From the NCBI GenBank assembly GCA_030141605.1, contig JAQGDQ010000139.1, positions 186,001 to 250,000 on the forward strand: DNA of 64,000 nt, given 5' to 3'. The position numbers were made by a program, and so were the translations under genes. Each line of letters starts with the position of its first letter. Position 1 is the first letter of the stretch. Shown here in pieces: positions 538 through 44,938 of the stretch. The DNA comes from Tubiluchus corallicola. Lineage: Eukaryota > Priapulida > Priapulimorpha > Priapulimorphida > Tubiluchidae. The notes beneath the pieces are model-generated. The model did not search any database, was not told the origin of the DNA, and saw only the letters and a list, made by a program, of their open reading frames with translations.

Positions 538-744
538 TGATTGTTTGTGGCGAACCTGATCCTTCTCCCGGAGCAGTATATGAATTTGGCAACATCCCTG
601 CAGATATTAAACATCAAGTAGGAAGCAGTTTTCAGTTTGTGTGCCAACATCCATATGAAACTAAAGGGCAAAGTAGTTTAGGAAATAATATTGTAACATG
701 TGGCCAGGATGGATTCTGGGAATTTGGAGATTTGAGATGTGAAG
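538..744 (+). CDS. Exon: sushi/CCP module 1
   Basis: This phase 1-1 exon follows an ATTTTAG acceptor and ends at G|GTAACA. About 69 residues carry the four CCP cysteines (VCG near the start, FVC, VTC, LRC at the end) and the conserved tryptophan between cysteines 3 and 4 (DGFWEFGD). CCP modules bind proteins at cell surfaces. The phase 1 start shows that at least one more coding exon lies upstream of position 1. Confidence 0.88.

Positions 745-44938: not shown

Follow-up and report, generated by a model that had tools for sequence, protein, structure and literature searches.

We found that the window, that is the whole 64,000-nucleotide stretch analysed here (C268:186001-250000 in a genome of 343.5 Mb), carries the 3′ part of a gene that we assign, with a probability of roughly 0.86, to the Uninflatable (Uif) family of type I cell-surface proteins. 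We base the assignment on domain content, on topology and on the lengths of the array and of the protein, and the comparison uses the counts, not the domain order, given for the fly protein in the accessible parts of the published descriptions. The product is a surface protein of the secretory pathway that crosses the membrane once and has a very long ectodomain. Its anatomy and its membrane anchor can be read directly from the joined protein, and the genome's SVEP1 is encoded by a different gene.

The exon chain was built by a splice-site/codon dynamic programme run over the window and the 50 kb preceding it, with phase kept and stops forbidden. Codon log-odds and splice-site profiles were first learned from unambiguous Cys-rich exons and then refitted to the best chain, and a few exons were set by hand after the dynamic programme. 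The exons of a preliminary description of this DNA, which had reported a 44-exon frame in the window, were not used for rebuilding; the rebuilt chain also had 44 exons, with identical ends (538-744 to 44778-44938). Its joined frame contains no internal stops, every internal junction is AG...GT, and the stop codon lies at 44936-44938. We identified that the gene begins outside the window, with 23 further exons upstream (C268:149712-185665; negative coordinates denote positions upstream of the window, contig position being 186000 + coordinate). These encode, in order, a signal peptide, a C-type lectin, an LDLa, three CUB domains, four CCPs, an EGF, an FA58C, another EGF and two CCPs of the second quartet. 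The predicted signal peptide, MLIQEFYLLAIIAAVYSQ at -36288, was found by a signal-peptide search and splice scores, which set the first two exons. A gene for Use1 terminates immediately upstream of the Uif-type gene; another candidate first exon near -39870, with an ATG and a hydrophobic run, was rejected because the Use1 gene ends there, and -36288 was chosen. The complete model thus comprises 67 exons and 3602 aa (about 395 kDa), from the predicted signal peptide to the stop.

Domains were located by Pfam on the joined protein, and some CCP and EGF units by cysteine pattern. The features within the window are as follows.

538-1169, + strand: CCP (sushi) units 3 and 4 of the second quartet (exons 538-744 and 1047-1169; Pfam Sushi/cysteine pattern)
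1779-4901, + strand: second F5/8C (discoidin) domain (exons 1779-1870, 2128-2190, 4327-4464 and 4709-4901; Pfam PF00754, E 3.1e-10)
5115-7371, + strand: HYR pair (exons 5115-5228, 5484-5627, 7026-7145 and 7243-7371; Pfam HYR, E 6.8e-18)
7895-8107, + strand: CCP-like unit behind the HYR pair, aligning with a CCP of the genome's SVEP1, without a Pfam Sushi match
8466-9716, + strand: linker from CCP to GCC2/GCC3 (exons 8466-8674 and 9479-9716; from the exon chain)
9855-12559, + strand: three ephrin-receptor-like (GCC2/GCC3) units (Pfam PF07699, three stretches)
13374-25331, + strand: 14 contiguous EGFs (Pfam EGF, 14 stretches, E 3.9e-77)
26375-29620, + strand: laminin-G/pentraxin-like domain of the concanavalin fold (Pfam Laminin_G_3, E 1.4e-10)
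32133-33868, + strand: third HYR and a CCP-like unit (Pfam HYR, E 5.8e-15)
36383-37544, + strand: second linker (motif scan)
38074-40697, + strand: four ephrin-receptor-like (GCC2/GCC3) units (Pfam PF07699, four stretches, E 2.6e-46)
41244-42268, + strand: two EGF repeats of the calcium-binding type (Pfam EGF_3 / EGF_CA, two stretches)
42874-43108, + strand: last EGF (cysteine pattern) and transmembrane helix (hydropathy 2.98), both in a single exon
43449-44938, + strand: cytoplasmic tail with a Ser-rich end (exons 43449-43687 and 44778-44938; 133 residues from the helix end)

Two of the four units of the second CCP quartet scored above the Pfam Sushi cut-off and the rest were recognised by cysteine pattern, units 1 and 2 lying upstream of the window. 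Over the complete protein, we counted eight CCPs in two quartets (six by Pfam, two by cysteine pattern) plus two degenerate CCP-like units after the HYRs, and 18 EGFs by Pfam with a 19th seen by eye beside the membrane, 14 of them contiguous. Pfam further gave one CLECT, one LDLa, three CUB, two FA58C and three HYR domains in the complete protein. The discoidin domain that the preliminary description had placed ahead of the HYR pair was recovered in that position (Pfam F5_F8_type_C at 1779-4901, HYRs at 5115-7371). The predicted chain would start with signal peptide, C-type lectin, LDLa, CUBx3, CCPx4, EGF, FA58C, EGF, CCPx4 and FA58C; continue with HYRx2, CCP-like unit, linker, GCC2x3, EGFx14, LamG, HYR and CCP-like unit; and finish with linker, GCC2x4, EGFx3, transmembrane helix and the 133-residue tail.

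A C-terminal type I helix and tail had been described before, and this part held up. The complete protein contains a single segment of transmembrane strength, with a mean Kyte-Doolittle hydropathy of 2.98 over 19 residues, the next best segment reaching 1.43. It is followed by a strongly basic stretch and a tail, for which we count 133 residues where 134 had been given. Because exon 42874-43108 also carries the last EGF, the helix cannot come from another gene. Moreover, the assembly contains the helix and tail of the window gene only once. Close relatives devoid of the helix had been named earlier as evidence against such an anchor; we looked at the two closest paralogs, and both keep the helix in the same place.

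These paralogs are two more Uif-like genes with the lectin-to-helix plan, located at C529:533282-569400 and C1915:1494154-1537700 (ends approximate). Over three extracellular stretches they are 54-73% identical to each other, and each is 35-41% identical to the window gene. In both, the helix stands right behind the last EGFs (DVAKIAGG...), with 68% identity between the two. Each has one FA58C, compared with two in the window gene, and the C529 gene encodes GCC2-EGF-LamG in a single 1217-codon open frame, whereas the window gene spreads this part over many exons. A further HYR-CCP-linker gene was seen at C2308:404400-407700.

We then compared the window gene with Drosophila Uif (CG9138). According to the accessible parts of its descriptions, fly Uif is a transmembrane protein of 3557 aa with 18 EGF, 1 CLECT, 3 CUB, 8 CCP, 2 FA58C and 3 HYR domains (Xie et al., PMC3340373), and 14 of its EGFs form a continuous array (Zhou et al., PMC7444548). 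By these published counts, the window gene shares with it the numbers of CLECT, CUB, CCP, FA58C and HYR domains, the 14 contiguous EGFs and the single-pass topology, and its length of 3602 aa is similar; the FA58C number of the fly is thus that of the window gene. The tails are also of like size, as a fly antibody fragment covering residues 3440-3548 is called intracellular and the fly protein ends at 3557. The two differ in that the window gene has 18-19 EGFs compared with the 18 published for the fly in the parts of the description at hand, and in that this genome, whose host is probably not an arthropod, has three such genes. Since there are three, we do not claim that the window gene is the one-to-one orthologue of the fly gene.

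In flies, Uif localises to apical membranes and is required for the tracheae to inflate and for membrane domains to grow in wrapping glia; it can also inhibit Notch in cis and acts with Notch on Sara endosomes (PMC12867482, PMC3340373, PMC7444548, PMC13178913). By analogy with Drosophila, the protein would reside on the apical epithelial surface, where its lectin, CUB, FA58C, HYR and CCP modules would contact matrix glycans and proteins. The EGF array might bind Notch in cis and join its endosomal sorting, a link that comes from flies only. The tail might signal, as the preliminary description had suggested; for Uif, Zhou et al. (2020) noted no evidence for an ectodomain that works as a signal-transducing receptor (PMC7444548). 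The motif scan identified a sole furin-type site in the protein, RIKR, which precedes QAPG in exon 36383-36653 of the second linker. We conjecture that cleavage here may leave the ectodomain either held by a membrane stub or shed from it. The shed ectodomain could then be the main working form, with a matrix role like that of SVEP1 and a tail of little weight. The single RIKR site is consistent with this, as are an RKRR site in the corresponding linker of the genome's SVEP1 gene and a presumed cleavage site in fly Uif, mentioned in the accessible text of PMC12867482 without a position. However, guide RNAs directed at the transmembrane/tail region and near the start produced the same defect in fly wrapping glia (PMC12867482), and the helix and tail exons are retained in all three paralogs, which makes this reading unlikely.

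The membrane-anchored Uif assignment was also weighed against the view that the gene encodes a lineage-specific protein assembled by domain shuffling, with its likeness to Uif due to convergence. Domain shuffling is frequent in such proteins, and the C529 and C1915 genes, besides having no second FA58C, contain extra sequence that separates GCC2 from the EGFs, has a PAN-/SUEL-lectin-like look by eye and gave no Pfam match. However, the agreement of six domain counts, an unbroken array of 14 EGFs, length and topology goes far beyond what convergence would give, and we regard this explanation as very unlikely.

The preliminary description had read the gene as a membrane-anchored, SVEP1-like (polydom-like) protein. 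The anchor and a homologous core stood, and the gene did not prove to be a membrane form of SVEP1. The CCP-HYR-HYR-CCP-GCC2 core, common to the Uif and SVEP1/polydom families, is present in the window gene. In alignments to the SVEP1 of this genome, its HYR-HYR-CCP part reached E 9e-22 (29% identity), and the third HYR plus the following CCP reached E 2e-19 (36% identity); this latter unit shows 36-40% identity when SVEP1 and both paralogs are compared with it. Linkers at the place corresponding to 8466-9716 also occur in SVEP1 and both paralogs. The order CCP-HYR-HYR-CCP-linker-GCC2 units-EGF array-LamG/pentraxin fold is shared by homology, so that the SVEP1 domain order claimed earlier applies to the core. 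It fails for the whole, since the window gene starts with CLECT-LDLa-CUBx3, and Pfam found no vWA in the complete gene. Similarly, no long sushi array closed by EGFs was found at the C-terminus, which is GCC2x4-EGFx3-TM-tail. The LamG-like domain reached a Pentaxin score of 19.7 bits, under the Pfam cut-off of 25.

A separate SVEP1/polydom gene was located at C1442:344000-369000, with a vWA (Pfam E 6.7e-15), CCPs, an HYR pair and a CCP, followed by a long linker, which holds the RKRR site, GCC2 units, EGFs and a pentraxin match. This gene is the true polydom of the genome. An orthologue of SVEP1/polydom that acquired a transmembrane helix, as proposed earlier, would explain the alignable core and its order; it does not fit the missing vWA, the CLECT-LDLa-CUB start, the lack of a long C-terminal CCP array, the low Pentaxin score or the presence of the vWA-bearing gene elsewhere. 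This proposal, which we consider highly improbable, is largely refuted by the full-length gene and by the existence of a distinct SVEP1 gene. A von Willebrand C/D-like stretch was seen by eye after the C1442 gene, at about 368400, and is a candidate part of it.

The plan had also been called an unusual architecture. It is already known from Uninflatable, a transmembrane protein (PMC3340373), so it is not new. Some cnidarian polydom or polydom-like proteins (Hydractinia, Nematostella) also have FA58C and CUB domains beside a Sushi-HYR-ephrin-type core, but they are described as matrix proteins, the canonical ones have vWA and pentraxin, and their FA58C and CUB domains are C-terminal, whereas those of the window gene are N-terminal (PMC12549020). 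A simple internal duplication was considered as the origin of the two HYR-CCP-linker-GCC2 modules of the window gene and was rejected: each module is nearer to the SVEP1 core than to its partner, indicating that there was no recent duplication.

Several candidate exons were rejected during model building. Exon 35064-35140 was dropped because it lies within a repeat interspersed across the genome (35064-35159 in the window, with an open frame of ~41 codons and many genomic sites), which mimics an exon for an ab initio predictor. Exon 36257-36324 was dropped, as a better donor past 33868 allows in-frame splicing to 36383. Between the CLECT and LDLa exons lies an intronic minisatellite (17 copies of 45 bp, 93% matches) that is open in frame and scored as coding; it was rejected as an exon and is the kind of sequence readily mistaken for one. 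The HYR, FA58C, CUB and LamG matches span exon joints, indicating that the chain is not a chance product. That it fuses two adjacent genes or contains false exons is scarcely credible: it was predicted from DNA alone, its first two exons came from the searches described above and the false repeat exon at 35064 needed removal, but a single frame with joint-spanning matches runs through all 67 exons, both paralogs share the lectin-to-helix plan, and the last EGF shares an exon with the helix.

Uif has been called "a conserved insect protein" (PMC13178913), and the searchable open literature on it is almost wholly on insects. The modest novelty of our results lies in a wider reach of Uif and in the three-gene family. 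We consider it fairly probable that Uif predates insects and tracheae, as an ancient membrane sister family of polydom with at least three genes in this genome that have kept their helices, and that its apical/Notch role is older than the arthropod cuticle. If so, the presence of one complete gene and two paralogs here, in a probable non-arthropod, would place the origin of Uif before arthropods, and Uif would be tied neither to tracheae nor to cuticle. The genes would also form a comparison set for the constant parts of the family, namely the EGF array, the linker cleavage site, the helix and the tail. The shared core also makes it easy to call Uif-type genes SVEP1-like when they occur outside insects.

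Several further features of the genome and the neighbourhood were recorded. The RR cuticle-protein domain was not found in the genome, a weak negative as this search was run without animal controls. The Hox homeodomains include Lox5-, Lox4-, Post1- and Post2-like types, as read from class-marking residues, not from a tree. Taken together, these two observations suggest that the animal is a lophotrochozoan. COX1, mollusc haemocyanin and FMRFamide patterns, tried as further taxon markers, yielded nothing, the COX1 and haemocyanin searches having been run without informative animal controls. At least 110 pentraxin-domain matches were found in the genome, some of them recurring with equal scores on at least two contigs, which would fit uncollapsed haplotypes or repeats of recent origin. 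Beyond the Uif gene, the window contains a retroelement reverse-transcriptase fragment with strong base skew (52884-55402, - strand; RVT_1, E 1.9e-17) and a nuclear receptor gene (57741-59741, + strand) with zf-C4 and hormone-receptor ligand-binding domains, which appears HR96/NR1J-like by eye.
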